Assembly: GCF_034424215.1 (NCBI RefSeq)
Contig: NZ_CP139960.1
Location: 496,001 to 560,000, forward strand
Length of the DNA stretch: 64,000 nucleotides
Reading direction: 5' to 3'
Origin: Niabella yanshanensis
GTDB taxonomy: Bacteria > Bacteroidota > Bacteroidia > Chitinophagales > Chitinophagaceae
In this document: in pieces, positions 35,669-53,650 of the stretch
How the letters are laid out: every line of letters starts with the position of its first letter
Position numbering within the stretch: position 1 is the stretch's first letter
Position numbers and translations under genes: made by a program
The notes under the pieces: generated by a model
The model's database searches: none
Seen by the model: the letters and a program-made list of their open reading frames with translations, nothing else
What the model was told of the DNA's origin: nothing

Positions 35669-36412
35669 TTAATTAATAATAGCTCCCTTATTTTTTGCCA
35701 GTTTTTTATCCCATTCTTCTTTTTCTTCTTTTGTTAGTTTTTCCCAATTGCTAACTTCTCCGATTATTTTCAAAGGTGCTTCACTGCGATAGGAGCGGGT
35801 AGGATTACCCGGAAATTTTTTATCGGTAACATTCGGGTCATCCTCAAAACTGCCGGTTGGCTCAATAATGTATACGCGTTCAGCACCTTCTCCCTTGGCC
35901 AAAGCAGCGGCAAGCCCCGCGCCATCCATTAATGCGGTGAAATAAATATGGTTCATAACTATTTCAGCCTGGTAATTCGACCGTCCACCGGCAACCAGCA
36001 AGTCGCCGGTTTGTAAGTCAGCTTTGGTACCATGATAAAAAGGCCCCTCGTCTTTTAGCTGGCTTTTGAGCGCGACAGCCCGTTCTTCATTGGCCCTGGC
36101 TTTGTCCTTATCTCCCAGGGCTTCATAACACCGGGCCATATCCCGGTATAAAGACGGTAATGCAGTTTGTACAGAAACGCTATCCGCTTTCTTTCCGGCC
36201 CCCAAAGCCTTATCCAGCCATTTTAATTGCGCATGAGGATCTGCCTCATGCCTGCCGGCCAAATGAGCGACTATAAATTTTTCAAAATCGTTGGTGGCTT
36301 CTTGCCAAGCCTGCAGCAGTAATTGGCGGGCTTCTTCCGGTTGGCCTTTTGCGTCGGCGGCCATGGCCTGCAAGCAACGTTGAATAACGGGATTGCTAGG
36401 ACTAAATTCCAT
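35669..36412 (-). CDS. arr: Rifamycin ADP-ribosyltransferase (Arr) with N-terminal TPR domain
   Basis: Residues about 10-118 form tetratricopeptide-like helices (LYRDMARCYEALGDKDKARAN). Residues about 121-240 match Arr enzymes, which move ADP-ribose from NAD+ to rifamycins: GPFYHGTKADLQTGDLL with His 127, IYFTALMDGAG with the Tyr, EPTGSFEDDPN with the Asp, and FPGNPTRSYR. All three residues known to matter in Arr are present. Typical Arr is about 140 residues, so the TPR half is an addition. It lies 6 bp after the MarR gene in one operon. Its stop codon TAA is inside the TTAATTAA at the transposon boundary. Rifamycin inactivation is likely; another ADP-ribosylation target is possible. Confidence 0.88.
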   Translation of the reverse strand: MEFSPSNPVIQRCLQAMAADAKGQPEEARQLLLQAWQEATNDFEKFIVAHLAGRHEADPHAQLKWLDKALGAGKKADSVSVQTALPSLYRDMARCYEALGDKDKARANEERAVALKSQLKDEGPFYHGTKADLQTGDLLVAGGRSNYQAEIVMNHIYFTALMDGAGLAAALAKGEGAERVYIIEPTGSFEDDPNVTDKKFPGNPTRSYRSEAPLKIIGEVSNWEKLTKEEKEEWDKKLAKNKGAIIN

Positions 36413-36418
36413 AGTTGA

Positions 36419-36904
36419 CTATTTAGATGGGGTGGAGGATTTTATTTTTTTGACCGGGTTCATGCCTTCAGTAGTGGCTGTCATAAGTGCAATAGCTTTT
36501 TCAAAATAGCAGGCAATAATCTTTTTTTCCTTATCAGAAAAAGATGCGATCAATTGCTGCGACTCATTACTGAAGGTTTTATATAATGGTTTCAGCAAGG
36601 CCGTTATTTTTACGGTATCCGGTATAATCAACACCTTTCGCCTGTCGGTGGTGTCATATTGCCGGCTTACCAGCTTTTTCTTCTCAAACCGGTCTATCAA
36701 ACCTGTAACAGCGCCGGTAGTAAGTCCGGTTAAAACGGCCAGCTCACCGGCAGTCATGCTACCCCTGGTAATAAAAAATCCGAGGTATTTTTGATCTGTT
36801 CCAGAAAGACCCGCCTTCGCCGCCATCCGCTCATGCATTTGTAAAGAAGTATAGGCATACAACTGGCTGAGTTGCTGTAGTTGAGCAATTAACGATTCAG
36901 TCAT
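36419..36904 (-). CDS. MarR-family transcriptional regulator
   Basis: 161-residue winged-helix repressor. The HTH and wing are seen at about residues 45-100 (MTAGELAVLTGLTTGAVTGLIDRFEKKKLVSRQYDTTDRRKVLI), with DRR at the wing tip as in MarR proteins. MarR proteins bind small phenolic or drug-like ligands and repress their own operon. It is the first gene of a two-gene operon with arr, so it probably controls rifamycin or stress-related induction. It is divergent from the AlkB-like gene, and the shared 238-bp gap contains inverted repeats that could be its operator. Confidence 0.9.
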   Translation of the reverse strand: MTESLIAQLQQLSQLYAYTSLQMHERMAAKAGLSGTDQKYLGFFITRGSMTAGELAVLTGLTTGAVTGLIDRFEKKKLVSRQYDTTDRRKVLIIPDTVKITALLKPLYKTFSNESQQLIASFSDKEKKIIACYFEKAIALMTATTEGMNPVKKIKSSTPSK

Positions 36905-39077: not shown

Positions 39078-39161
39078 CCGTGCATCGTTAGCTTTTATTT
39101 AAACCGGGAACAGTAACATACACGACATGTTCACCGGCGGAGAAAGGGTTGGCCACGAATT

Positions 39162-39360
39162 CCAGCTTTTTGTGAAAACAAAATGATTTTGAAATACAAC
39201 TTAGTAAATTTCCAGCACTTTCAGAAGAAGCCTTTTGTGTAAATGGAGCTATGAGCCCTTCACGAATTCTGGTTGGAATGTATAAATGCCTTGTTGACGC
39301 AAGGCATTTGTTGATTTAATTGGTGATTCTGTAAATTCAGAAATCCCGAACAGAATAATA
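39162..39360 (+). ncRNA. Putative bridge RNA region of IS110 copy 1
   Basis: IS110-group elements encode a bridge RNA in the non-coding left end upstream of the transposase, and this region is of the right size and place. It contains a perfect 9-bp hairpin (AATGCCTTG/CAAGGCATT, 39285-39308), a second small hairpin TTCTG/CAGAA (39327-39342), and the words CACGAATTC (39261-39269) and GTGTA (39237-39241). These match, or are complementary to, the element's target and junction. Loop assignment is not established. Confidence 0.5.
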
Positions 39361-40767
39361 ATGAACATAAAGATACATTCCCTGAGGGATTTTTCAATTT
39401 TAAAATTTGTCAAGATGGAAAAACTTTCGATGGAAATTGTAAATCCGCATGCAGCAGGTATTGACGTGGGATCTCGCTTTCACATGGTAGCTGTAAGCCA
39501 AAGCGAACAAGGAGTAAAAACGTTCGGCGTTTATACTGAAGACCACCAGTCGATGATTGGTTGGCTTAAAGACCATCAGGTGAATAGTATTGCAATGGAA
39601 AGCACGGGTAGTTACTGGCAAACCTTATTTAGCGCTTTACAGGTAGCAGGCTTTGAAGTTATCCTGGTCAATGGCCGTCATACAAAGAACATTAAAGGTC
39701 GAAAAACTGATGTTCAGGATTGCATGTGGATACAAAAGCTGCATAGTTTAGGTCTGTTAAGCGGCAGCTTTCTACCGGATCATTTTACAGATCAGTTAAG
39801 GACCTATTATAATCACCGGCAGCACCTGATTGAGCAAATGTCAAAATATACTAATAAACTTCAAAAGTCTTTTAGATTAATGAATATTCGATTAGACGTT
39901 GTATTGAATGACATTACAGGCAAATCCGGCAGAGCTATTATAGAAGCCATTCTTAATGGACAAAGAGACAGTATAGAGTTAGCTAATCTTGTAAACGGTC
40001 GGGTGAAAAAAAGTAAAGTTGAAATAGCCCAATCACTACGGGGCAACTGGAGAGATGACCTGCTCTTTGAGATTAAAGAATGCCTGGATTTATATGATAT
40101 ATATCATTCAAAACTTATAGCATGTGATGAGGCTTTAAATGATATATTAATTGTTGCAGAACCACATCCCAATCATATAATACAATCTCAGGTAAAAAAA
40201 ACCAGATCCAAGCATGCTCCTTTATTTGATATCCAGAAGATCGCCTATTCTTATTACGGCACCAATCTCTTTGAAATTCCGGCAATAAGCTATAACACTA
40301 TTCTTTGCTTGCTTACACATATAAGTAAAAAGGATTTTGATAAGTTTCCTACCGTTAAGCATTTTACCAGTTGGCTAAGGTTGGCGCCCGATACAAAAAA
40401 GACTGGCGGGAAAGTTATAAGTAGCAGAACTCCTAAAGGCAAAAACATAACTGCACTTGCTTTGAGACAAGCAGCCAATAGTATAGGGAACATGAAGGGT
40501 CATTACCTGTCCCATTTTTTCAAAAGAGTCGCATATAAAAAAGGACGAAGTTCCGCAATTACTGCTACCGCGAGAAAACTAGCGGCTATCATTTATCAAA
40601 TGATTACCAGGCAACAGCCCTATCTGCCATCAGACATTGACGCACTTGAGCAAAAGCAAAAAAAACAAAAAATTAAAAACCTAAAATCTCAATTCAAAAA
40701 ACTAAATCTGGATAAAAATGAAATATTAGATATTCTTACAAGTGGTTCATTGTCACCAAATTTCTAA
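39361..40767 (+). CDS. IS110-family transposase (RuvC-like DEDD recombinase), copy 1
   Basis: 468 residues. The N-terminal RuvC-like DEDD domain shows GIDVGSRFHMVAV (Asp), AMESTGSYW (Glu) and RKTDVQDCMWIQ (two Asp). A coiled-coil linker of about 150 residues follows, then the C-terminal Transposase_20 domain (FEIPAISYNTILCLL, FTSWLRLAPDTKKTGGK, LRQAANSIGN), where the nucleophilic Ser of the family lies after the GGK motif. ATG 39361 is used; a start at the second or third Met is possible. The frame is intact and identical to copy 2, indicating recent transposition. Confidence 0.95.
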   Translation: MNIKIHSLRDFSILKFVKMEKLSMEIVNPHAAGIDVGSRFHMVAVSQSEQGVKTFGVYTEDHQSMIGWLKDHQVNSIAMESTGSYWQTLFSALQVAGFEVILVNGRHTKNIKGRKTDVQDCMWIQKLHSLGLLSGSFLPDHFTDQLRTYYNHRQHLIEQMSKYTNKLQKSFRLMNIRLDVVLNDITGKSGRAIIEAILNGQRDSIELANLVNGRVKKSKVEIAQSLRGNWRDDLLFEIKECLDLYDIYHSKLIACDEALNDILIVAEPHPNHIIQSQVKKTRSKHAPLFDIQKIAYSYYGTNLFEIPAISYNTILCLLTHISKKDFDKFPTVKHFTSWLRLAPDTKKTGGKVISSRTPKGKNITALALRQAANSIGNMKGHYLSHFFKRVAYKKGRSSAITATARKLAAIIYQMITRQQPYLPSDIDALEQKQKKQKIKNLKSQFKKLNLDKNEILDILTSGSLSPNF

Positions 40768-41071
40768 ATTGTTGTACAGAATACACGAATAGTTACACCA
40801 ACAGCGCGAAGCACCTCTATTTACACCTCTGTGTTCTGATCCTGCGGATTCCATGGGCTAGCTACCACCCAGGCCGTTGTTTCGACTAAGCGAAACAAAG
40901 TGAAGCGCACGGAGAAACCTCCAATACAAGCCGACTCTCGCCCCATAACGGGAGACCCTTCCCTTTCGTTGATATTTTCGCCGATGAACCTTCCAAGTTT
41001 ATGCTGTTGGCCTTTGTCTGTGGCTAAAAAGCACCAGAATCGATAATAAGCAGTATAGTTATTATTCCTTT

Positions 41072-41117: not shown

Positions 41118-41212
41118 GATGGGCTTAGTTTGTAGTGATAAAAACCAACAGGGGCTCCCTTCATGCATTTCGTTGCGCTTCACTTAATCGGAATGACGAT
41201 TGGGAAGGAGCT

Positions 41213-41298
41213 TCTACCTTCGGTGGCTTTTACCAAAGAATTGTTGGGGTATTCAGCTATTTTATACGTAGCTTGTTAGTGAGAAACATCAAAAGGGG
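41213..41298 (+). repeat. GTTGGTG double-hairpin repeat, copy A (diverged)
   Basis: Degenerate member: TTCGGTGGCTTTTACCAAAGAA, then the conserved middle ATTGTTGGGGTATTCAGC, then a decayed second hairpin ending CATCAAAAGGGG. Same order as the fuller copies at 46490 and 47323. Confidence 0.7.
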
Positions 41299-41356
41299 CC
41301 AAAAACAACAGCAATGGTGATAGAGGAAATAAAATTGTTTTATATATTCGAAAAAC

Positions 41357-43576
41357 GTGAAAAAATTAATCCAACTGTTTTTGTTAGCACTCCTTGTATG
41401 GTCCTGTCAATCACCACGAACGGTTGATAGGTACAACCTGAATTTTGAGCAACCTATTAATAGTGGGGTAAACAATTGGAGAGCGATAAACAGGACAGAT
41501 AGCTCGCGTTATAAAGTTTCTTTAGATTCTGCCGTTGCTAAAGAAGGCAAATATGCTGCGGCAATTTCTTTTGAAGGAGGACTCCCTGATCGAACAGGAT
41601 GGGTTTATACTATTAATGACACTTTTAAAGGAGATAGTATAATGCTTACCGGTTATGTAAAAACACAAAATGTCATGGATGGTCAGGCAGCATTATGGCT
41701 TAAGGTTAGTTCGAATGGAGCTTATGACGACATGCATAAAAGAGGATTAAAGGGCACGAATGACTGGACAAAATGTAGTATCACACTTCCCCTGTCTTCA
41801 GAAACAGAAACTAAGATAGTTTTTGGGGGCATGCTTCGGGGAAGAGGCAAAATGTGGATGGATGACCTTAAAATAACTATTGATGGAAAAGACATATCCT
41901 CGCTGACCCCGATCGAGAAATTGCCTGCAGATAAAGACTATGCGTTCGATTTGGGCGACACTACTAAGATAGGCGCCTTAGACGAAGACAAAATAAACCA
42001 CCTGTATCATTTGGGCCTTATCTGGGGATATTTGAAATACCATCACCCGGCCATCATACAAGGAAAATACAATTGGGATTATGAATTGATCAGGATCTTA
42101 CCTAAATTTCTTAATGCTGCAAAAAATGAAAAAGATGCTTTGCTCCGCCAATGGATTCACAGCATGGGGGCGTTGGGAGTAGGTACTGCTAATGATAACA
42201 GGAATAACGACAGTGTTACTATAAAACCAGATCTATCCTGGATCACCACCTCTGGTTTTTCGAAGGACCTAATTTCGCTATTACAAAAAACAGGGGGAGT
42301 CAATGGTATTTGTGATAAGCAATATTATGTTGCAAAAACAGCTCTGGGAAATCCAGTTTTTAAAAATGAGCGCGCCTATGATAACTTCCCCTATCCGGCT
42401 GATGGGTTTCGGATATTGGCTTTATTTCGATATTGGAATCTGGTGCAATATTTTTTTCCTTACCGGAACATTATGGGTGAAGATTGGAAGATCGTTTTAA
42501 AGCGGTTTATCCCTAAATTTTTAAATGCCCAAAACGAGCTGGAATACCAATTAACTGCCCTGGAACTGGCTGCGCATACAGGTGACGGGCATGCGTTCTT
42601 CAATTATCACGAAAAAATCAACAGGTATTTTGGAGCCAACTATCTGCCTGTAAAACTCAGGTTCATCGAAAATAAATTAGTGGTAACAGGCCTCGATCAG
42701 GGTCCTTCCATTAAGGACGATATACGATTGGGTGATGTGATTTCTAAAATAGGTACTATTTCAGTGGAGAAGAAGATAGAGATGTATTCTAAATATTTTC
42801 CAGCACCCAACAAAGCTGCACAGCTTAGGTATATGGCTGAAGGGTTGGTTAGCAGAACTAACGATTCCATTGTTAATGTAGAGGTGATAAGGGACGGCAA
42901 AAGATTAAACAAAACAGTGCATGCTTATGGAAAGGATAAATTAAAATTTGAAAAATTTAGTTTTTATAGCAAGTCATATAAATGGATTAACCACACCATC
43001 GGGTACATTGATAATAGTACATTAAAGAAGGCAGATCTGGAATCCATGTTTACACAGTTTCAGCATGCAAAGGGGTTAATCATTGACCTTAGAAACTATC
43101 CTGCAGAGAATTTAATGCAGGCGGTACCGGATTATCTTTTATCGGAGCCGAAAGCGTTTGTAAAAATGTCGGCGCCCGATTTTTGTAGGCCCGGCAGTTT
43201 TTATTTTCGATCCGCAGAGAAAACAGGCAATGAGCACAAAGGGCTTTTTAAGGGAATTCTTGTATTGCTAATTGATGAAACTACTCAAAGCGCGTCAGAG
43301 TATCATGCTATGGCATATAGCACTTATCCCAATTGTGTTATAATAGGCAATAACTCGGCGGGTACAGACGGGATGGTTTCTGAGTTTTCTCTTCCCGGAA
43401 ACCTGAAAACACGTTTTAGCGGAGTGGGTATTTATTATCCTGACGGAAAACCAACGCAGCGTGTAGGTATTCAACCTCATATTATGGTGAAACCAACTAT
43501 ACAGGATATTAGAAATAAGCGGGACATAGTATTGGATAGGGCCATTGAATATTGTAAAAAAAAATACAGGAAATAA
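41357..43576 (+). CDS. S41-family peptidase lipoprotein, paralogue
   Basis: 739-residue lipoprotein (Cys 17 in VWSC) with the same architecture as the gene at 26804-29008. It has an N-terminal beta-sandwich (GKMWMDDLKITIDGKD, residues about 25-180), a PDZ-like region (DIRLGDVISKIG) and an S41 catalytic domain (GLIIDLRNYPAENL, LIDETTQSASEYHAMAY, GVGIYYPDGKPTQRVGI). The start is GTG 41357, directly at the signal peptide. The two paralogues are similar along their whole length, so duplication of a complete gene is likely. This copy is bracketed by two inverted identical IS110 elements, so it could be inverted or mobilised with them. Substrate unknown. Confidence 0.88.
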   Translation: MKKLIQLFLLALLVWSCQSPRTVDRYNLNFEQPINSGVNNWRAINRTDSSRYKVSLDSAVAKEGKYAAAISFEGGLPDRTGWVYTINDTFKGDSIMLTGYVKTQNVMDGQAALWLKVSSNGAYDDMHKRGLKGTNDWTKCSITLPLSSETETKIVFGGMLRGRGKMWMDDLKITIDGKDISSLTPIEKLPADKDYAFDLGDTTKIGALDEDKINHLYHLGLIWGYLKYHHPAIIQGKYNWDYELIRILPKFLNAAKNEKDALLRQWIHSMGALGVGTANDNRNNDSVTIKPDLSWITTSGFSKDLISLLQKTGGVNGICDKQYYVAKTALGNPVFKNERAYDNFPYPADGFRILALFRYWNLVQYFFPYRNIMGEDWKIVLKRFIPKFLNAQNELEYQLTALELAAHTGDGHAFFNYHEKINRYFGANYLPVKLRFIENKLVVTGLDQGPSIKDDIRLGDVISKIGTISVEKKIEMYSKYFPAPNKAAQLRYMAEGLVSRTNDSIVNVEVIRDGKRLNKTVHAYGKDKLKFEKFSFYSKSYKWINHTIGYIDNSTLKKADLESMFTQFQHAKGLIIDLRNYPAENLMQAVPDYLLSEPKAFVKMSAPDFCRPGSFYFRSAEKTGNEHKGLFKGILVLLIDETTQSASEYHAMAYSTYPNCVIIGNNSAGTDGMVSEFSLPGNLKTRFSGVGIYYPDGKPTQRVGIQPHIMVKPTIQDIRNKRDIVLDRAIEYCKKKYRK

Positions 43577-43718
43577 ATAGATATTTAGCAGCCCTAAGGG
43601 AAATCTAAATAAACATCAGACGCTAATCACTGACCTGCCAGTATCATGTTTTTACCGCCGGGGCGGACAGGTGTGATTAAAATACAGGCTCACGTCTTCG
43701 TCGGTGTTTTTTGCGCCA

Positions 43719-43741
43719 TCGTTGGTGTTTTTCACCAACGA
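43719..43741 (+). repeat. GTTGGTG hairpin repeat, copy B (first hairpin only)
   Basis: TC-GTTGGTG-TTTTT-CACCAAC-GA, a perfect 9-bp stem. It is preceded by a diverged half-copy (CGTCGGTGTTTTTTGCGCC) and, near 43650, by a phrase (ATGTTT.TACC..GGCGGACA.GTGTG) that recurs near 46262. Confidence 0.8.
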
Positions 43742-43831
43742 ACTTTTTGGTGCGCCTCCGGACTGGTTACTGCAACATGGGGGCTTTATGTATCTTGCAG
43801 TTGTTATTGACCATAGTAAATAATGTGATCT

Positions 43832-44440
43832 ATGAAAAAGAAAGGTTTAATAGCAATCTGGGTAGGTTGGTGCCTCCTGCAGCCGGTGCTGTATTTTTTT
43901 GGCGATTTATTGACAGATATTATGGCATTGCTGATACTGGCACCGCTGTTCTTTATTCTTTTGATAATACAGCTGGTGAAGCTAATAAAAGAAATGCCGG
44001 GTGTAAGCGGGCTCAGGATCGGGAAGCTATTGAGTTTTATCCTGCTGCTTTTTCTAACCACTGCGCCCTGGATCGTTCAAAATGTAATGGAGCGGATCGA
44101 TTGGGTGATCTTATACAATAAGAGAAAGGAGATTGTACAACAGGTTAAAAAAGGACAACTGAAACCCAACCAGGGGTGGAGCAGCAGCCTTTGTAAACTT
44201 CCGTTTGCTTTACCGGTTGTGTCTGACGGGGGCAACGAAATCCAGATTTACCGCAACAAGAGTAATAATGCACTAACTGTTGAATTTTGGACATTCAGGG
44301 GAATGCCTGATGGTGGTTCGCGGTCTTTTGTGTATTCGGAAGATGTAGCCGAAATAAGCGGGATGGACAAAAAGGTCGCCCAACAGCCTGGAAAAAATCG
44401 TAAAATACAGGACGGCTGGTACTGGCTTACGGATGAGTAA
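43832..44440 (+). CDS. Membrane protein of unknown function (202 aa)
   Basis: Three hydrophobic helices occupy the first 90 residues (ILAPLFFILLIIQLVKLI, LSFILLLFLTTAPWIV). A soluble C-terminal domain of about 110 residues follows (QIYRNKSNNALTVEFWTF, DGWYWLTDE). The family is not recognised. The C-terminal part has the look of a small single-domain protein rather than an enzyme. It lies alone between two repeat copies inside the IS110-flanked segment. A longer overlapping frame starting at 43711 in another phase has no domain features and was not chosen. Confidence 0.6.
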   Translation: MKKKGLIAIWVGWCLLQPVLYFFGDLLTDIMALLILAPLFFILLIIQLVKLIKEMPGVSGLRIGKLLSFILLLFLTTAPWIVQNVMERIDWVILYNKRKEIVQQVKKGQLKPNQGWSSSLCKLPFALPVVSDGGNEIQIYRNKSNNALTVEFWTFRGMPDGGSRSFVYSEDVAEISGMDKKVAQQPGKNRKIQDGWYWLTDE

Positions 44441-44453
44441 AGAGGCTTCTTCC

Positions 44454-44477
44454 TTCGTTGGTGTTTTCACCCATGAA
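44454..44477 (+). repeat. GTTGGTG hairpin repeat, copy C (truncated)
   Basis: TTCGTTGGTG-TTTT-CACCCATGAA, a decayed first hairpin about 26 bp from the end of IS110 copy 2. Confidence 0.6.
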
Positions 44478-44522
44478 GCTACCGTGCTATTTTCCTTTAA
44501 TCAGTGTATTCTGTACAACAAT

Positions 44523-45929
44523 TTAGAAATTTGGTGACAATGAACCACTTGTAAGAATATCTAATATTTCATTTTTATCCAGATTTAGTTTTTTGAATTG
44601 AGATTTTAGGTTTTTAATTTTTTGTTTTTTTTGCTTTTGCTCAAGTGCGTCAATGTCTGATGGCAGATAGGGCTGTTGCCTGGTAATCATTTGATAAATG
44701 ATAGCCGCTAGTTTTCTCGCGGTAGCAGTAATTGCGGAACTTCGTCCTTTTTTATATGCGACTCTTTTGAAAAAATGGGACAGGTAATGACCCTTCATGT
44801 TCCCTATACTATTGGCTGCTTGTCTCAAAGCAAGTGCAGTTATGTTTTTGCCTTTAGGAGTTCTGCTACTTATAACTTTCCCGCCAGTCTTTTTTGTATC
44901 GGGCGCCAACCTTAGCCAACTGGTAAAATGCTTAACGGTAGGAAACTTATCAAAATCCTTTTTACTTATATGTGTAAGCAAGCAAAGAATAGTGTTATAG
45001 CTTATTGCCGGAATTTCAAAGAGATTGGTGCCGTAATAAGAATAGGCGATCTTCTGGATATCAAATAAAGGAGCATGCTTGGATCTGGTTTTTTTTACCT
45101 GAGATTGTATTATATGATTGGGATGTGGTTCTGCAACAATTAATATATCATTTAAAGCCTCATCACATGCTATAAGTTTTGAATGATATATATCATATAA
45201 ATCCAGGCATTCTTTAATCTCAAAGAGCAGGTCATCTCTCCAGTTGCCCCGTAGTGATTGGGCTATTTCAACTTTACTTTTTTTCACCCGACCGTTTACA
45301 AGATTAGCTAACTCTATACTGTCTCTTTGTCCATTAAGAATGGCTTCTATAATAGCTCTGCCGGATTTGCCTGTAATGTCATTCAATACAACGTCTAATC
45401 GAATATTCATTAATCTAAAAGACTTTTGAAGTTTATTAGTATATTTTGACATTTGCTCAATCAGGTGCTGCCGGTGATTATAATAGGTCCTTAACTGATC
45501 TGTAAAATGATCCGGTAGAAAGCTGCCGCTTAACAGACCTAAACTATGCAGCTTTTGTATCCACATGCAATCCTGAACATCAGTTTTTCGACCTTTAATG
45601 TTCTTTGTATGACGGCCATTGACCAGGATAACTTCAAAGCCTGCTACCTGTAAAGCGCTAAATAAGGTTTGCCAGTAACTACCCGTGCTTTCCATTGCAA
45701 TACTATTCACCTGATGGTCTTTAAGCCAACCAATCATCGACTGGTGGTCTTCAGTATAAACGCCGAACGTTTTTACTCCTTGTTCGCTTTGGCTTACAGC
45801 TACCATGTGAAAGCGAGATCCCACGTCAATACCTGCTGCATGCGGATTTACAATTTCCATCGAAAGTTTTTCCATCTTGACAAATTTTAAAATTGAAAAA
45901 TCCCTCAGGGAATGTATCTTTATGTTCAT
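44523..45929 (-). CDS. IS110-family transposase, copy 2
   Basis: 468 residues, identical in translation to the protein encoded at 39361-40767, with the same DEDD residues and Transposase_20 domain. The gene is intact. Full identity of two copies about 5 kb apart implies a very recent event, since even synonymous differences are not seen. Confidence 0.95.
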   Translation of the reverse strand: MNIKIHSLRDFSILKFVKMEKLSMEIVNPHAAGIDVGSRFHMVAVSQSEQGVKTFGVYTEDHQSMIGWLKDHQVNSIAMESTGSYWQTLFSALQVAGFEVILVNGRHTKNIKGRKTDVQDCMWIQKLHSLGLLSGSFLPDHFTDQLRTYYNHRQHLIEQMSKYTNKLQKSFRLMNIRLDVVLNDITGKSGRAIIEAILNGQRDSIELANLVNGRVKKSKVEIAQSLRGNWRDDLLFEIKECLDLYDIYHSKLIACDEALNDILIVAEPHPNHIIQSQVKKTRSKHAPLFDIQKIAYSYYGTNLFEIPAISYNTILCLLTHISKKDFDKFPTVKHFTSWLRLAPDTKKTGGKVISSRTPKGKNITALALRQAANSIGNMKGHYLSHFFKRVAYKKGRSSAITATARKLAAIIYQMITRQQPYLPSDIDALEQKQKKQKIKNLKSQFKKLNLDKNEILDILTSGSLSPNF

Positions 45930-46128
45930 TATTATTCTGTTCGGGATTTCTGAATTTACAGAATCACCAATTAAATCAACAAATGCCTTGCGTCAACAAG
46001 GCATTTATACATTCCAACCAGAATTCGTGAAGGGCTCATAGCTCCATTTACACAAAAGGCTTCTTCTGAAAGTGCTGGAAATTTACTAAGTTGTATTTCA
46101 AAATCATTTTGTTTTCACAAAAAGCTGG
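45930..46128 (-). ncRNA. Putative bridge RNA region of IS110 copy 2
   Basis: Exact counterpart of 39162-39360 upstream of the second transposase, with the same AATGCCTTG/CAAGGCATT hairpin (45982-46005). Because the two regions are identical, both elements should share one target specificity, in line with their identical 13-bp target cores. Confidence 0.5.
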
Positions 46129-46489
46129 AATTCGTGGCAATAAAATATAGTGTGTATGCTAACGCAGTAAGAACAATCGCACCACTATAATGGCCACAGA
46201 TGCACAAATAATATGGGAGATGTATACGGAATCTATGTAACTCTTCATCACAAATACTATGTTTCTACCCCACGGCGGACAAGTGTGGTGAAAATACACC
46301 TGTGTTTGTGTCGTCACTTTCACTAAGGAACCGAAAACTTTAGCCACGAATGCACTAATTATTACGCCAAGCCTGAATACAGCTCTTATTTCCGCCCTTG
46401 TTGTGCTTTCCGCTACCAGATGAGTGAAGTAATACCTATGCACAGTTGATGAAAGACACCAATGGTCGCAAAATGCCCGTCTCATGCCA

Positions 46490-46568
46490 TCGTTGGTGTT
46501 TTTCACCAACGAATTGTCGGGGTATTCAGCTATTTATACTAAGCCTGTTGGTAAAAACTACCAACAGG
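46490..46568 (+). repeat. GTTGGTG double-hairpin repeat, copy D
   Basis: Full unit: TC-GTTGGTG-TTTTT-CACCAAC-GA (46490-46512), the middle ATTGTCGGGGTATTCAGC, then CCTGTTGGT-AAAAACT-ACCAACAGG (46544-46568). Confidence 0.9.
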
Positions 46569-46613
46569 GACTCAAAGAACACCTTATGGCAAAATACCGG
46601 CCTTTATCCTTTG

Positions 46614-46621
46614 TATTTTTG
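46614..46621 (+). promoter_or_regulatory. Promoter -7 box for the GNAT gene
   Basis: TATTTTTG fits TAnnTTTG. Transcription near 46628 would leave no leader for ATG 46630 and about 20 nt for ATG 46648, favouring the second start. Confidence 0.4.
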
Positions 46622-46647
46622 TAAGGCAGATGCTAAATTGCTTCATA

Positions 46648-47289
46648 ATGCCAATAGTCGAACGCCATCTTATTGAACAATGGCTGCGGGCCTGGTGCCT
46701 GTCGCGCCGCCTGCCTTTGCCTGTGCCTTACGGATCTGGGTTTAAGGTGGAGGTAGGGTATCCTGATCAACAGGCCCGTTATGTATTCCCTAGTTTTAGT
46801 GAAGAAGTTATTGCCCTGGCGGAGACCATTCATGAACCGCATATCTTTCTTAAGATCTGTAATGCGCCACCTAACCTTTCTGCATTATTGCCCGGGCGCT
46901 GGGTGGTACAGCCGGAAGCCGCTATGATGAGTTGTTTCCACCCCATGAGGGGTGTCATGCCTGCTTTACCGGCGGGCTATATACCGGAGACCGAACAGTA
47001 CCCGGCAACGCAGGTATTACGGATCATTTGCCGCGAAAGCCTGGAGCTGGCTGCTGTGGGCCGCCTGGTTATTACAGGCGATCTCGCGGTATACGATCGC
47101 ATCTGTACTACGGCCGCTCACCAGCGAAAAGGCCTTGCCACCATTTTGATGCGCGAGCTGGAAAACCTGGCGCTGACACAGGGGGTAAGCAAAAACCTGC
47201 TGGTGGCTACTGCCGAGGGCAGGCTTTTATACGAAAGAATGGGCTGGAGCCTGTATTGCCCTTATAGCTCTGTGGTGATACCAGGCTGA
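46648..47289 (+). CDS. GNAT-family acetyltransferase
   Basis: 213-residue protein with a C-terminal GNAT fold: VYDRICTTAAHQRKGLATILM carries the acetyl-CoA loop (QRKGLA for QxxGxA), and LLVATAEGRLLYERMGW is the usual last strand and helix. The N-terminal 100 residues are family-specific and contain GRWVVQPEAAMMS. Members acetylate small molecules or proteins; the substrate here is unknown. ATG 46648 is preferred to 46630 on promoter spacing. It is a single gene bounded by repeat copies D and E. Confidence 0.82.
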   Translation: MPIVERHLIEQWLRAWCLSRRLPLPVPYGSGFKVEVGYPDQQARYVFPSFSEEVIALAETIHEPHIFLKICNAPPNLSALLPGRWVVQPEAAMMSCFHPMRGVMPALPAGYIPETEQYPATQVLRIICRESLELAAVGRLVITGDLAVYDRICTTAAHQRKGLATILMRELENLALTQGVSKNLLVATAEGRLLYERMGWSLYCPYSSVVIPG

Positions 47290-47322
47290 CGGTCTTTTGA
47301 TCTTATATTCGTGCCTCTTGCT

Positions 47323-47404
47323 TTTGTTGGTATTTTTCACCAACGAATTGTCAGGGTATCCAGCTTTTGTTATATTAAGCATGTTGTGAGAAACGCCAAC
47401 AGGG
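47323..47404 (+). repeat. GTTGGTG double-hairpin repeat, copy E
   Basis: TTTGTTGGT-ATTTTTC-ACCAACGAA, the middle ATTGTCAGGGTATCCAGC, and a second arm ATGTTGTGAGAAACGCCAAC ending in AGGGG. It lies 33 bp after the GNAT stop codon, where it could also work as a terminator. Confidence 0.85.
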
Positions 47405-47563
47405 GCGCAAAACCACGAAGGCCTGGTTCTTCGGCTGTGTCTTATTTATTGAATCGATCTTACCTTTGCCGGTGTTTTCACGAGCAAATGATTAGCAGCT
47501 GATAATAACACCAACTACAATGTAAAAACGATTATATTAGAGAACTCTAATCAGGCAAACTAT

Positions 47564-48208
47564 ATGGGCTGGAAAGCATCTATGATCATCATCCATCAGC
47601 CGGGAGAAGTGGATCACCGGGAATTATTGAAACGGCTGGGTTTTATCAACCTCAATAAAATAGCAGGCTTAGATGTAGCGTCCGCGATCTACCCGCGTGA
47701 AGAAGAAATTTATATAGGCAATTACAAAAACAACCTGCTAATTTGCGAGGGCAGCCTGCCCTATACATTTTTCAATCAGCAACCGCCCTTCATCGAAGAA
47801 TTGCTGACCCATCTTTTCCCGGATAAGGAAATAGCGGTTATTGTGCTGCATAACGTAGTAAATCTTTGGGGCTTTTCCATTATTAGAAATGGTAAACGAA
47901 TAAGGACAAGGGCAGGAGAATATACCGGCAATGTTATCGATTTCGGCACACCCCTAAAAGAAGAGGAGTACCTGCTTAGTAAATCTTTTATCGACGAGGA
48001 AACCGGCGAAAGAATGTACCTTTTAGATGGCTGGAAAGAACCCTGTACTGAAGATGCTACAGGAGAAGAACTTGTTTTTTCGGTATGCTCCAGGTACTTT
48101 GGCCAAAAGCTGGATGAAGCTGATGAGCTGTTTGATACTGAATTCACCGGATATGAAGTGGCAAAAAACCTCCCCGCCGGGCCTAAGCCCTGGTGGAAAG
48201 TTTGGTAA
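47564..48208 (+). CDS. Protein of unknown function (214 aa), possibly DUF6928-like
   Basis: Soluble 214-residue protein starting MGWKASMIIIHQPGEVDHRE. The opening and the YPREEEIYIGNYKNNLLICEG segment recall DUF6928-type proteins, but I am not certain. No catalytic motif is visible; the C-terminus ends in PKPWWKVW. It lies alone between repeat copies E and F. It could be an immunity-type or stress orphan, but no partner gene is present. Confidence 0.55.
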   Translation: MGWKASMIIIHQPGEVDHRELLKRLGFINLNKIAGLDVASAIYPREEEIYIGNYKNNLLICEGSLPYTFFNQQPPFIEELLTHLFPDKEIAVIVLHNVVNLWGFSIIRNGKRIRTRAGEYTGNVIDFGTPLKEEEYLLSKSFIDEETGERMYLLDGWKEPCTEDATGEELVFSVCSRYFGQKLDEADELFDTEFTGYEVAKNLPAGPKPWWKVW

Positions 48209-48239
48209 AAGAATACGTTTCGGCCTCGGCGGTCGAGCC

Positions 48240-48313
48240 TTAGTTGGTGTTTTTCACCAACGAATTGCCAGGCCAGCTTTTTTATACTCAGCCCGTTGGT
48301 GGAACGCCAACGG
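48240..48313 (+). repeat. GTTGGTG double-hairpin repeat, copy F
   Basis: TTA-GTTGGTG-TTTTT-CACCAAC-GAA (48240-48264), a shortened middle, then CCGTTGG-TGGAACG-CCAACGG. It begins 31 bp after the preceding stop codon. Confidence 0.85.
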
Positions 48314-48412
48314 CGATTCAAAAGATCTGCAAACGGAGTTTCCTGGAATGTGCGGTTTAACGCTTCCCAATCTTAAATATTGCCTTGTTTTTATTATTTT
48401 ATACTGATTGGG

Positions 48413-48443
48413 GCAATTGGTCAACAGCCTGTTGACCAATTGC
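48413..48443. repeat. 31-bp perfect palindrome
   Basis: GCAATTGGTCAACAG and its exact reverse complement meet around a single central C. A further GGTTGACCAA follows at about 48475. It is related in sequence (GTTGaCC) but not identical to the GTTGGTG family. It could act as a bidirectional terminator or protein-binding site between the convergent genes 47564-48208 and 48589-49104. Confidence 0.8.
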
Positions 48444-48588
48444 AAAATACAGCTAATAAAATAAGTCAAAAACCGGTTGACCAAATTTTCACCGATCACC
48501 CTGCTGACTTTAAGCAGGAGCTTATTGATAATAAACCTAAAAAAGCCCAATTGCGCGGGGGCCGGGTTTGTGTTCGTGCATATCCTAG

Positions 48589-49104
48589 CTATAGCCAGGT
48601 TACGGCGCCGGTATTTTTATCGATGCGAAATGCCTTCCAGCCTCCGGGCGGATCAAATTCTCCCTTACCCGATAGTGTTGCTGCTTCAAACGTATCGATT
48701 ACCACACCATCTATAGCCAGTTCTAAATTCGCCCATAGGATATGCCCGGTTTTATCAATACAATAGACACCGCAGGAATCAGTCACGTAAAAAAACTGAT
48801 CGTTATAATAAAGATGTCCGAAATAGTCATTTACTTTTAGCACTTGCAGCGGCTTATTATCAATTGTATCAAACAGGTAAAAATGCTCCTGGTGCCCTAC
48901 AGCTAATAAATGATCTGCTGCTAACGCCTCCCGGAAGGGGCTGCATTGTATTAGATACCGTATTTCATAAATGACATTTTGCTGGTTATTATTACCAGCG
49001 AGCAGGAATTGATGATGAGGGTAATTAGAAGAGGTGACGCCTGAAATCAGCACGGGGCTGGTATAAATGTCAGGAGGGATGGTGTTGATAAATTGAATGG
49101 TCAT
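48589..49104 (-). CDS. Protein of unknown function (171 aa), propeller-blade-like
   Basis: Soluble protein starting MTIQFINTIPPDIYTSPVLI. Repeated short beta-segments such as LLAVGHQEHFYLFDTIDN and YYNDQFFYVTDSCGVYCID recall WD40/PQQ-type blades, but at 171 residues it would be only part of a propeller. Not recognised further. It lies 42 bp upstream of the next minus-strand gene and may be in one operon with it. Confidence 0.5.
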   Translation of the reverse strand: MTIQFINTIPPDIYTSPVLISGVTSSNYPHHQFLLAGNNNQQNVIYEIRYLIQCSPFREALAADHLLAVGHQEHFYLFDTIDNKPLQVLKVNDYFGHLYYNDQFFYVTDSCGVYCIDKTGHILWANLELAIDGVVIDTFEAATLSGKGEFDPPGGWKAFRIDKNTGAVTWL

Positions 49105-49146
49105 GCTATGAGTGAGGTAATATTAATACTTAAAATCATTATAACG

Positions 49147-49515
49147 TTACTCTTTCTTTTTCATGATCAGAACAATACCCGAAGTTCCGCCGGAACCCAT
49201 GTAGTTGAAATTTTGATCCTGTGTCTGAACCAATTCAAATTTTTGCTCCGACATGTAATTTAAAATGGCAGCGTAGAATTTTTTGTTGGCTAATGTTTCG
49301 GAAAGCTCTTTGGCCACCTTAATTTGTTCTGGTTGGTCTCCCAGGTCAACTTCTACTTTTAGCTTTTTGGAAAACGGCTTACCCTCAACTGAAATATAGG
49401 CATAAGAATAAACTGAATTGGTCGGCTGGCTATTGTTTTCTTTTGTTTGCATTTCCTGACTGTGAGCCGTAAAACCAGCAGCAACCATAAGCAGCATAAT
49501 AAAAAATATTTTCAT
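49147..49515 (-). CDS. Exported protein of unknown function (122 aa)
   Basis: Small secreted protein with signal peptide (start MKIFFIMLLMVAAGFTAHSQ). I use ATG 49515 because it opens the signal and because a promoter -7 box (minus-strand TATATTTG, 49539-49546) lies just upstream of it, inside the longer frame. The mature part has a two-strand, helix, two-strand look (AYISVEGKPFSKKLKVEVDL, FELVQTQDQNFNY) reminiscent of DUF4177-type small domains. Function unknown. Confidence 0.6.
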   Translation of the reverse strand: MKIFFIMLLMVAAGFTAHSQEMQTKENNSQPTNSVYSYAYISVEGKPFSKKLKVEVDLGDQPEQIKVAKELSETLANKKFYAAILNYMSEQKFELVQTQDQNFNYMGSGGTSGIVLIMKKKE

Positions 49516-49538
49516 AACAGCATTTTTAAAGTGTTGTA

Positions 49539-49546
49539 CAAATATA
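49539..49546 (-). promoter_or_regulatory. Promoter -7 box of the exported 122-aa protein gene
   Basis: Minus-strand TATATTTG matches TAnnTTTG, about 23 bp upstream of the chosen ATG. The -33 element is weak. Confidence 0.45.
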
Positions 49547-49582
49547 TTTTTTAATGCTAACAATAAATGGCGGAAGAAAAGG

Positions 49583-49609
49583 ACTGAGGTCGCGAGCGGA
49601 TTCGAACCA
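49583..49609 (-). other. tRNA 3'-end-like fragment
   Basis: On the minus strand GGTTCGAATCCGCTCGCG matches the T-loop (TTCGAAT), 3' T-stem and acceptor of a tRNA, followed by ACCTCA. The 5' part of a tRNA is absent: the T-stem partner is mismatched and no anticodon arm precedes it. This is a short remnant, the kind of scar left where an integrative element uses a tRNA gene. Confidence 0.4.
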
Positions 49610-49725
49610 TTCAATTACCAGTTTCATCGTCTAGTCCATCACCATTTTATTAAATCTGACAAACCATGATGATAACTCTTAATGACGCTTACGGTTTCCC
49701 GTACTCTTGATTTGTTTGAGTTTAA

Positions 49726-49733
49726 TAGGTTTG
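49726..49733 (+). promoter_or_regulatory. Promoter -7 box of the exported 186-aa protein gene
   Basis: TAGGTTTG matches TAnnTTTG, 27 bp before ATG 49761; a TTGATTTG stretch upstream (from 49707) is somewhat too close for an ideal -33. Confidence 0.45.
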
Positions 49734-49760
49734 CTTGAATATTAAAACAAACCACGCATT

Positions 49761-50321
49761 ATGATAAGAAAATTAATGATCCTAAGTGCCGTACTATTTT
49801 ATGGTAGCGTTGCTTTTTCACAAGAGGTGAAAAACGACGTCGATGGGACCAAAACAAAGATGGACGCCTTCGTGTCAAAAACAGGGACAATTACCAAATT
49901 TGTTGACACAAAATTACCAAATCTTAGAACTTCACTTGGAGGCTTTGCTACAACAAGAATAAGGAAACTCACTAGCGGTTCAACATCTGCATACTTTTAT
50001 CAAATTGTAAAAGGGGGGTCTTATGGTAGTAATACTGCTTCAATTGAATATTCTGACTTAGGTGAAATTATCAATGCATTAAAATTGCTTAAATCGGAAG
50101 TAGATAAAGACATAGCTTCTAAGCCTGATTATCTTGAAAATAAATTTATTACTGTAGACGGCTTTCAAATTGGTTATTATATTAGTAATGAGAAACCAAC
50201 CTGGTATATAAAACTAGAAAGCTATGGTTCAGATAATACTATTTACTTGAAGAGTGGAGATGACATAGAAGTTCCGTTTATTGAAGCTAAAGCCAAAATT
50301 GAAGAGCTTAAAAAAGAATAA
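49761..50321 (+). CDS. Exported protein of unknown function (186 aa)
   Basis: Signal peptide (start MIRKLMILSAVLFYGSVAFS) followed by a 165-residue mature protein rich in Lys and Ser, with LGEIINALKLLKSEVDKDI as a helix and FQIGYYISNEKPTWYIKLES as beta-strands. No family recognised. More AT-rich than the glycan-locus genes. It is divergent from the exported 122-residue gene, with a tRNA-like fragment between them. Confidence 0.6.
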   Translation: MIRKLMILSAVLFYGSVAFSQEVKNDVDGTKTKMDAFVSKTGTITKFVDTKLPNLRTSLGGFATTRIRKLTSGSTSAYFYQIVKGGSYGSNTASIEYSDLGEIINALKLLKSEVDKDIASKPDYLENKFITVDGFQIGYYISNEKPTWYIKLESYGSDNTIYLKSGDDIEVPFIEAKAKIEELKKE

Positions 50322-50712
50322 ATAGGAGGGTTTGAATTGGATATTCGGTCCTACCTTTTTGTGAAGTTTTTCTACAGCACCTGCTCAAACATCCCTACAA
50401 CCTTTAAACTATACAGCTCCGATCCCGAAAGTTGAATGTCGCTATAACCTTCAGCATTTGTTAGGGTTGTCAGCGTTATCGTTTCATGTTCCTAGCCTTC
50501 GTCGTTCACGGCCTTGGTACTTTGGTATCACGCCTTCGTTGGTGTTTTTCACCAACGAACCTTTAGGCCTAATGCTGCTTTAACCATGAGCCATTAACAA
50601 CTACCGAGTTAATATAAGGAGTAAGTTTTGATAAGTTTGCCTGTTGGTGAAAAACACCAACAGGGGCCCAACTATTAATGCCGATTTTGAAGTGATTTGT
50701 AGCTAAGATATC
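50322..50712. other. 391-bp gap between convergent orphan genes
   Basis: Holds repeat copy G, whose two hairpins are pushed 80 bp apart by non-repeat sequence. No coding frame is supported. Confidence 0.6.
50535..50664 (+). repeat. GTTGGTG double-hairpin repeat, copy G (split)
   Basis: First hairpin at 50535-50559, 10-bp arms around TTTTT. Second hairpin CCTGTTGGTG/CACCAACAGG at 50640-50664, 10-bp arms around AAAAA. Both stems are perfect, and the stem cores are identical between the two hairpins. Confidence 0.9.
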
Positions 50713-51782: not shown

Positions 51783-51804
51783 CGTTCATGGGTTTTATGC
51801 TTTT

Positions 51805-51920
51805 CAAAAATAGGTTATTTATTAGCAATTAGGGTAGTATAAATATATGTAAATTATGCTATGGGTGGTATAAAATATCCGGCTATAACCAGCCCGCCTT
51901 GGGTTAGTTCATGCTCCCGC
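51805..51920 (-). promoter_or_regulatory. Shared upstream region, XRE copy
   Basis: Upstream of the XRE gene. On the minus strand TTGCTAATAAATAACC precedes TATTTTTG (51805-51812, a TAnnTTTG box). Further upstream, TATAAATATA (from about 51839) and a GCTAT/TATAAAATA.CCGG block have clear counterparts upstream of the KilA-N and ORF6N genes. Confidence 0.55.
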
Positions 51921-52776: not shown

Positions 52777-52910
52777 AGGTATAGTTGGTGTTCAATTAGT
52801 AGGTGATATTACTTCCAAAACGAGGTTGTCGATTAGCAAACCTGCTCTTATAAATATACGGAAAATCGCTATATGATCGCGTATAATACCGGGCTAATAA
52901 GTAGTTTACC
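52777..52910 (-). promoter_or_regulatory. Shared upstream region, KilA-N copy
   Basis: Next to the start codon both this and the ORF6N copy read CATAGGTATAGTTG (plus strand). They share GATTAGCAA, TATAAATATAC and ACCGGGCTAATAAGTAGTTT in the same order. The block TTGCTAAT..AACC..TTTTG (minus strand) also occurs before the XRE gene. Confidence 0.7.
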
Positions 52911-53505: not shown

Positions 53506-53650
53506 AGGTATAGTTGATGTTAGGTTAGTGAGTTATTTTACTTTCAAAACCGGGTTATTGATTAGCAAGTCTGCTACTATAAATATACCTAATATATGCT
53601 ATACGTTGTGTAAAATACCGGGCTAATAAGTAGTTTACCAGGGTACACTA
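53506..53650 (-). promoter_or_regulatory. Shared upstream region, ORF6N copy
   Basis: Closest match to the KilA-N copy: start-proximal CATAGGTATAGTTG, then TTGATTAGCAAGTCTGC, TATAAATATAC, TAAAATACCGGGCTAATA and AGTAGTTTACC. It ends near the divergent gene at 53681. Confidence 0.7.

Follow-up and report, generated by a model that had tools for sequence, protein, structure and literature searches.

Gene gaps and a GTTGGTG hairpin

What is the double hairpin that recurs in the gene gaps between 41 and 51 kb of the 64,000-nt stretch of Niabella yanshanensis DNA analysed here, and by what system could it have spread? The window, as we call this whole stretch, is G000:C1:496001-560000; its source genome (G000) is a single contig of 5,543,186 bp, which we compared with two genomes of the same genus, G009 and G005. 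We conclude, with a probability of about 0.8, that the repeats are repetitive extragenic palindromic (REP) units, and REP doublets forming hairpins (REPINs), of a REP-associated tyrosine transposase (RAYT) system of Bacteroidota. The first-pass annotation of the window had likened them to REPs and bacterial interspersed mosaic elements (BIMEs) or, alternatively, to a cassette array with a recombination site; the former likeness is borne out by tagged hairpins, by inverted BIME/REPIN pairs and by hairpins of the same core on either side of a RAYT gene elsewhere in this genome.

Each REP unit consists of a 5′ GCC tag and a hairpin of about 10 bp with the core GTTGGTG-TTTTT-CACCAAC, and the "double hairpin" is two such units in inverted orientation, their tags facing out, which makes it a REPIN or BIME. 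The repeat is real and not a product of chance; GTTGGTGTTTTTCACCAAC, with up to three mismatches, has eight matches in the window and none in 100 shuffles. A covariance-model search of the window found 13 units, all at 41.2–50.7 kb with E ≤ 0.069; six of them belonged to the model's training set, and the four weakest (E 0.019–0.069) rest mainly on position, three being second halves of REPINs and one adjoining a REPIN. The remaining window matches at E ≤ 1 are two of noise level, at 2.5 kb and 31.1 kb (E 0.13 and 0.2), in agreement with the earlier remark that the first 39 kb holds no copies. Read by hand, seven of nine consecutive gene gaps between 40767 and 50713 hold a unit. The units and their pairs are as follows.

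41135–41159, minus strand: half of a degenerate REP, the right arm of hairpin 2 plus GGGGC, seen in the sequence and as a very weak profile match (E 8.7)
41208–41303, plus strand: degenerate REPIN with a decayed hairpin 1 and a preserved middle, its hairpin 2 unit being 41268–41303 (−); 74% to the reference, model E 0.069
43711–43746, plus strand: single REP unit with GCC tag, hairpin at 43719–43741; model 49.9 bits, E 3.3e-13, training-set member
44447–44481, plus strand: single REP unit, degenerate, separated by 22 nt from an IS110 copy; model 19.2 bits, E 0.0019
46438–46473, minus strand: degenerate REP unit adjoining the 46482 REPIN; model E 0.019
46482–46575, plus strand: REPIN with both hairpins intact, REP(+) 46482–46517 and REP(−) 46540–46575, tags outward; model E 1.7e-13 and 4.1e-7
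47316–47410, plus strand: REPIN, REP(+) 47316–47351 and decayed REP(−) 47376–47410; model E 2.6e-11 and 0.026
47458–47492, plus strand: degenerate single REP unit; model E 1.1e-4
48233–48321, plus strand: REPIN, REP(+) 48233–48268 and decayed REP(−) 48288–48321; model E 1.1e-11 and 0.031
50528–50671, plus strand: REPIN with both hairpins perfect and a longer middle, REP(+) 50528–50563 and REP(−) 50636–50671; model E 1.5e-13 and 5.9e-13

Pairs of plus and minus units, the hallmark of REPINs and BIMEs, thus stand at 46.5, 47.3, 48.2 and 50.5 kb of the window, and further pairs lie at 814, 2686 and 2786 kb of the genome. The first-pass annotation had described seven copies sharing one order, hairpin 1, a middle resembling ATTGTCGGGGTATTCAGC and hairpin 2. 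Hairpin 1 is indeed perfect or one change from perfect at 43719, 46490, 47323, 48240 and 50535, but degenerate at 41213 and 44454. The full order is complete at 46490 only: hairpin 2 has decayed at 47323 and at 48240, where the middle is also short; both hairpins have decayed at 41213; the model detects no hairpin 2 at 43719 or 44454; and at 50535 hairpin 2 is perfect, but the middle is longer and different. The degenerate units at 46438 (−) and 47458 (+) had not been listed.

Conservation of the hairpin and its tag

The structure of the unit was read from an alignment of 35 units from G000, G009 and G005, whose core had to differ from GGTGTTTTTCACC by no more than one change. It consists of a GCC tag followed by a 10-bp stem that closes a T loop of 5 nt. 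In the lower stem of these 35 units, 53 cells have changed on both sides, versus 16.0 ± 3.7 after shuffling, and 93.1% of the cells are paired, versus 24.6–61.4% when the alignment is slid. Exact GCC fills the same three columns in 24 of the 35 units, and it stands where canonical REPs carry GTAG or GTGG at the hairpin foot, a tag that is absent here. The units therefore display what is expected of REP/RAYT repeats in general, namely a short hairpin, a conserved unpaired 5′ tag and several copies in gene gaps.

Three clusters in the genome

All ten exact matches of GGTGTTTTTCACC in the 5.5-Mb genome belong to one of three clusters, located in the window, at 1.61 Mb and at 3.38–3.39 Mb, while one mismatch adds 19 further matches, mostly outside the clusters, with a backward control pattern giving 11 in all. 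The covariance model yields at least 23 matches at E ≤ 0.001 among the 150 of 3,429 candidates that were scored: seven in the window cluster, seven at 1.61 Mb, five at 3.38–3.39 Mb and four at three other sites, each of the three holding a pair of opposite units. The training set had included 15 of the 23, and four of the other eight lie in the clusters. The 23 matches fall into six linked groups (the two units of a REPIN counting as linked), whereas 10,000 random placements averaged 21.7 groups and never gave fewer than 17. In each cluster its own stem variants predominate, and the corresponding G009 loci carry matching variants. Copy number differs between the genomes; in keeping with local amplification, one gap holds three units in G000 (L021 15418–15616) and its counterpart in G009 holds one.

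A variant of its own is found in G016, also of this genus, in which four units (L064–L067) share GGTGTTTTTCACC and after it a similar tail, close to GATACTGCGAAAAACTTTT; the G016 RAYT (L032) is flanked by GGTTCGTG hairpins, unlike these four GGTGTTTTTCACC units.

An intact RAYT gene inside the 1.61-Mb cluster

Seven Y1_Tnp matches are present in the genome, one of which lies inside the 1.61-Mb cluster and is a 172-aa protein (P0001). It passes NCBIfam NF047646 (REP-associated tyrosine transposase) with 88.8 bits at a cut-off of 80, keeps the HUH motif NHLH and the tyrosine motif YIHFNP, and has a ratio of nonsynonymous to synonymous substitution rates (dN/dS) of 0.137 relative to G009; the gene is intact. 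For the 94%-identical G009 relative, the predicted structure (mean pLDDT 93.8) finds as its best PDB match 4er8, a REP-associated tyrosine transposase bound to a REP hairpin (E 5.5e-9). Outward GCC-tagged hairpins with the GTTGGTG core flank the G000 gene on both sides, as expected of a REPtron. In G009 the 5′-side unit is tagged, the nearest 3′-side unit has decayed and the next tagged one is about 0.5 kb away; in G005 the RAYT is frame-broken and its flanking tags are one GCC and one GCT. A profile of the RAYT-locus REPINs matches the window REPIN at 50536–50667 (E 8e-6). The first-pass annotation had suggested looking for a linked RAYT-like gene; the genome has a RAYT with same-core hairpins, but this gene is not linked to the window cluster, from which it lies about 1.07 Mb away.

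The GCC tag beside Bacteroidota RAYTs

The same arrangement extends well beyond the genus. We kept 80 of the 214 RAYT relatives that a scan of named genomes gave, nearly all labelled as Bacteroidota or its subgroups and one as Ignavibacteriaceae, and accepted tagged hairpins with loops of up to 6 nt. Within 150 nt of the 80 genes there are 41 outward GCC-tagged hairpins upstream and 45 downstream, versus four and four facing inward, and beyond 600 nt the density of outward ones is down to 0.02–0.05 per kb. At 51 of the 80 loci at least one side carries an outward tagged hairpin within 300 nt (both sides at 35, one at 16). GCC is the commonest outward trinucleotide near these RAYTs (98 of 154 hairpins), and when 92 hairpins are picked for GCC in any of five registers a single register holds (G in 86, C in 91 and C in 89 of the 92), with the stem consensus N-TTGTTGGTG and a T-rich loop, the core being the same as that of the window. 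Outside the 80, three tagged outward units stand beside the RAYT of G014, and two units flank that of G011, one of them outward with GCC, all with loops of more than 20 nt.

Copy number also goes with the presence of a RAYT. The pattern GTTGGTGN{3,5}CACCAAC occurs in 36 of 98 family genomes, and its backward control in six (one each in five, five in one). At least three copies are found in 11 of the 16 family genomes that have a RAYT at E ≤ 1e-40, versus 14 of the 82 without one. Fisher p for this comparison, uncorrected for relatedness, is 7.7e-5; of the six threshold pairs tried it is the most favourable, and the other pairs give p 0.001–0.03.

Beside the G011 and G014 RAYTs (L069 8728–9503, L073 4526–5495) the stem is kept, with tags of GCC in four of five units and TCC in one. 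Some of the 80 loci that lack a tagged hairpin hold GTTGGTG-like hairpins with other tags, and the RAYT flanks in L139, L145 and L156 have GTTGGTC-stem hairpins with tags other than GCC, possibly a guide variant that changed together with the stem.

A proposed route of spread

In the explanation that we favour, the hairpin with its 5′ GCC guide-like tag is able to form when its strand is single. Most likely hairpin and tag were bound in single-stranded form by the 1.61-Mb RAYT or by a relative since lost, whose HUH tyrosine would have cut next to the hairpin before REPIN copies were pasted into intergenic DNA. Local duplication may have amplified these copies afterwards, so that each genomic cluster came to be dominated by its own stem variants. 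Under this scheme the RAYT at 1.61 Mb would be the enzyme that moves the units, GCC would be its cleavage guide and copies would spread locally. For TnpA_Mb, the relevant section of PMC8266576 describes a changed tag that changed the cleavage dinucleotide, an attempt that failed in two other systems. The guide rule shown for that one system predicts that with a CGCC guide the cut would fall at G|G or G|C and not at C|T.

Several results pull against a RAYT origin. Neither the window cluster nor the 3.38-Mb cluster has a Y1_Tnp match in its vicinity, and the tag is inexact in 11 of the 35 same-genus units. By the criterion used, which excludes loops of more than 6 nt, 29 of the 80 RAYT relatives have no tagged hairpin, and the second G011 unit faces the RAYT gene and carries TCC. 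Among the family genomes, the 14 of 82 that hold three or more copies do so without a close RAYT, and five of the 16 with a close RAYT fall below three copies, all five having none. Finally, the genomes compared offered no case of a precise insertion with a matching empty site as its counterpart.

Possible gene turnover around the units

The window was first described as single orphan genes alternating with repeats. Genes and repeats do alternate, but several of the genes belong to known families, an IS110 transposase is among them, and the last two copies are three genes apart. The genes between repeats include the following.

41357–43576, plus strand: S41 peptidase
43832–44440, plus strand: gene without a Pfam family, with a 43% identical relative in the cluster of the sister genome
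46630–47289, plus strand: GNAT acetyltransferase
47564–48208, plus strand: DUF6928 protein

A gene-REP-gene layout is also seen at the RAYT locus and is hence not special to the window. We picked 12 short open reading frames (ORFs) there by hand, six in L058 (G009), two in L020 (G000) and four in L059 (G005), one of the last being part of a frame-broken gene. All 12 lie on the RAYT strand and alternate with REPs, their G+C content is 0.26–0.385 versus 0.40–0.49 in the flanking genes, and their content differs among the three genomes. Three of them pass Pfam immunity cut-offs (CdiI_2, CdiI_3 and, in the frame-broken gene, Imm7), and an NCBIfam scan of ten of the short ORFs returned no immunity name. 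In the comparison of G000 with G009, five of five hand-read block edges in L058 lie in a REP or within 10 nt of one, where 21% of positions qualify (p 4e-4, one REP interval resting on a weak match), as do four of five in L020. G000 and G005 have in common at the RAYT only the REP-RAYT-REP and REP pieces, and the gene that adjoins the RAYT in G000 and G009 is found at 152 kb in G005, whose RAYT sits at 1,205 kb. The window cluster of G009 keeps the same REP variant among mostly different genes; three window-region genes have relatives beside G009 REPs (76%, 43% and, for part of one gene only, 75%). Sister genomes do differ in the genes that stand next to the units, the comparison that the first-pass annotation had suggested for cassette gain and loss, and block edges at the RAYT locus fall at REPs, but at the 3.38-Mb locus they mostly do not (2 of 14, counting either side of the comparison).

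It is conceivable from this picture that REPINs act as gene-cassette joints, at which short orphan genes come and go along with a REPIN, by the action of the RAYT or by recombination between REPs, in the manner of integrons or rAID arrays but with an HUH single-strand enzyme. The low-GC co-oriented ORFs of varying content, the three immunity families, the edges in L058 and L020 and the displaced neighbour gene of G005 all speak for such a role. We nevertheless hold it to be unlikely. The few edges at the 3.38-Mb locus lower its odds, a longer conserved opposite-strand gene also lies among the REPs of the G009 RAYT locus, homology searches tend to run on through junction repeats such as these, and homologous recombination between REPs gives the same picture. 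The genes of the window cluster that were scanned contain no immunity family, and their G+C content is not uniformly low. For the wider set we took 140 of the 181 eligible ORFs that lie no more than 1.5 kb from a RAYT and compared them with 140 of 190 far ORFs, leaving out L081 and L132, the loci that had raised the idea; no immunity family appeared among the 25 of 83 families listed near RAYTs, and none among 25 of 78 in the far control. Accordingly, we confine the immunity idea to the RAYT locus as it stands in G000, G009 and G005. A bolder form, whose odds the 3.38-Mb edges reduce as well and which we credit a little less again, has the RAYT and GCC REPINs constitute a Niabella cassette system through which short orphan genes, some of which confer immunity to the toxins of neighbours, are gained and lost with a REPIN, the window cluster being an older array of this kind. 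Were a cassette reading true, it would add a new type of enzyme to the builders of gene arrays, with an HUH enzyme in the role that a tyrosine recombinase plays in integrons and rAID arrays.

Other explanations of the repeats

A classical integron-like array, with attC sites and a tyrosine integrase, would also produce a gene-repeat-gene order, and one gene of the G009 sister cluster (L057:10654–11049, beside two head-to-tail REPs) matches Pfam Hfx_Cass5, Integron Cassette Protein. The R-box motif of attC sites is GTTRRRY/RYYYAAC. Neither box is present in the seven repeat stretches tested, and only two PF00589 matches exceed the cut-off genome-wide; they lie at 1.88 Mb and 4.31 Mb, and about 270 kb separates the closer one from any cluster. 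A sub-threshold PF00589 fragment at 1.42 Mb is about 190 kb from a cluster. With no linked tyrosine integrase and no R-boxes in those stretches, we rejected an integron array in its usual form, and the recombination-site cassette array of the first-pass annotation is not supported in that form either; that the repeats are integron-like at all strikes us as extremely improbable. Nor do the clusters have near them the predicted tyrosine recombinase that would mark an rAID array. More ordinary, but still improbable, is the view that the hairpins are intrinsic terminators or messenger-RNA-stabilising structures of no mobile origin. The units do sit in gene gaps, and that at 43719 scores as terminator-like; the other 12 of the 13 window units fail the same scan, however, and in intact hairpins the T run is in the loop. 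Clustering in three places, inverted pairs and the hairpins flanking RAYTs at 51 of 80 loci also count against it. Copies spread evenly through the genome as simple terminators, the picture that the first-pass annotation had set against its own proposal, are thus not what is seen. The units could still have gained a host role after their spread.

Closer to our own conclusion, and compatible with it, is the idea that the window and 3.38-Mb clusters are relics, each of which once had its own RAYT and lost it, so that the units now decay by descent. The cluster-specific stem variants common to the corresponding G009 locus fit this well, as do the many decayed units and one 3.38-Mb unit that occupies the same place in G000 and G009 and lies upstream of the same gene in G005, about 0.7 kb away. 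No RAYT remnant was detected near either cluster, however, and several window units are perfect hairpins; we regard a relic origin as a real possibility, if on balance a doubtful one.

Further features of the window

The cluster is surrounded by two 100% identical 1,635-bp IS110-family insertion sequence copies in opposite orientation, at 39152–40786 (+) and 44504–46138 (−). IS110 as the mover of the repeats found no support, as the joined flanks of both copies show no intact REP at either site. ISPpu9 is an IS110-like element. In Pseudomonas, it is described as an insertion sequence inserted in REPs in the section of PMC8450116 consulted. An Rfam scan of the window gave no family at the gathering score. 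A second short dispersed motif, resembling TTAGCCACAGATGCACGAATGA, was noticed by eye in the same gene gaps (window positions about 41100, 46190 and 46330; L057 about 5710 and 6128). Three related stretches of about 100 bp, at 51784–51885, 52795–52896 and 53524–53625, stand beside helix-turn-helix, KilA-N and ORF6N genes and are possibly shared control regions. At 35669–36904 a protein with an Arr-ms (rifampin ADP-ribosyltransferase) domain adjoins a MarR regulator.

Comparison with known systems

The Niabella repeats resemble the REPs and BIMEs of E. coli and other gamma-proteobacteria with their TnpA_REP (REPtrons) in their tagged gap hairpins, inverted pairs, RAYT-flanking copies and fold match to 4er8. 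They differ in the tag, which is GCC and not GTAG or GTGG, and in distribution, gamma-proteobacterial REPs being spread genome-wide whereas the Niabella copies are few and mostly confined to three clusters. A closer parallel is TnpA_Y1 subclass 2.6 (Bertels group 5), which the sections of PMC6006769 used here describe as mostly from Bacteroidetes; its hairpins, spotted by eye, are without GT[AG]G. Bacteroidetes also harbour subclass 2.4, whose REPs do carry GT[AG]G (PMC6006769). Our RAYT shares with subclass 2.6 its length (172 aa, subclass median 179), NH[LIV]H, atypical flanking hairpins and copies elsewhere in the genome, but has FWER and YIHFNP where the consensus given there is WQ and YIH[QN]NP. 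Judged by motifs, length and phylum, the protein is thus a probable member of the subclass, and its REPs are atypical in the same sense. The fixed-register GCC tag and the conserved TTGTTGGTG stem go beyond the description of subclass 2.6 in those sections.

The literature covered here knows two REP superfamilies, tagged GTAG and CGTC, and PMC3733652 defines both tags; the CGTC REPs too are short tagged hairpins (stem 8–9 bp, loop 4–5 nt, mostly HH dimers) from Bacteroidetes and other phyla, and the part of that article drawn on reports no dedicated transposase with them, whereas the Niabella tag is GCC, often CGCC, and comes with a RAYT. The rAID orphan-immunity arrays of Bacteroidales are defined by a tyrosine recombinase, according to the portion of PMC12247911 cited here. 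At the RAYT locus, and there only, the 12 picked ORFs recall them in form: they are short, low in G+C and of one orientation, three of the 12 fall in immunity families, and conserved motifs lie between them. Unlike rAID arrays, this locus has no tyrosine recombinase near it and a RAYT inside the array, and the window cluster does not show such a likeness.

The GCC tag is not named in the REP/RAYT literature text covered here, a scope that does not extend to supplementary tables, and it appears to be newly defined. A fixed tag with a conserved stem offers a defined candidate substrate for subclass-2.6-like RAYTs, previously left with "atypical" hairpins, and makes the guide rule directly testable, since by that rule the cleavage dinucleotide should change when the tag does; the few, clustered copies provide a case for studying how REPs spread locally. 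Taken together, the element is of a known kind, the REP/REPIN of a RAYT, in an unusual form marked by a GCC tag found across many Bacteroidota RAYTs, by tight clustering and by a hint of gene turnover at one locus.

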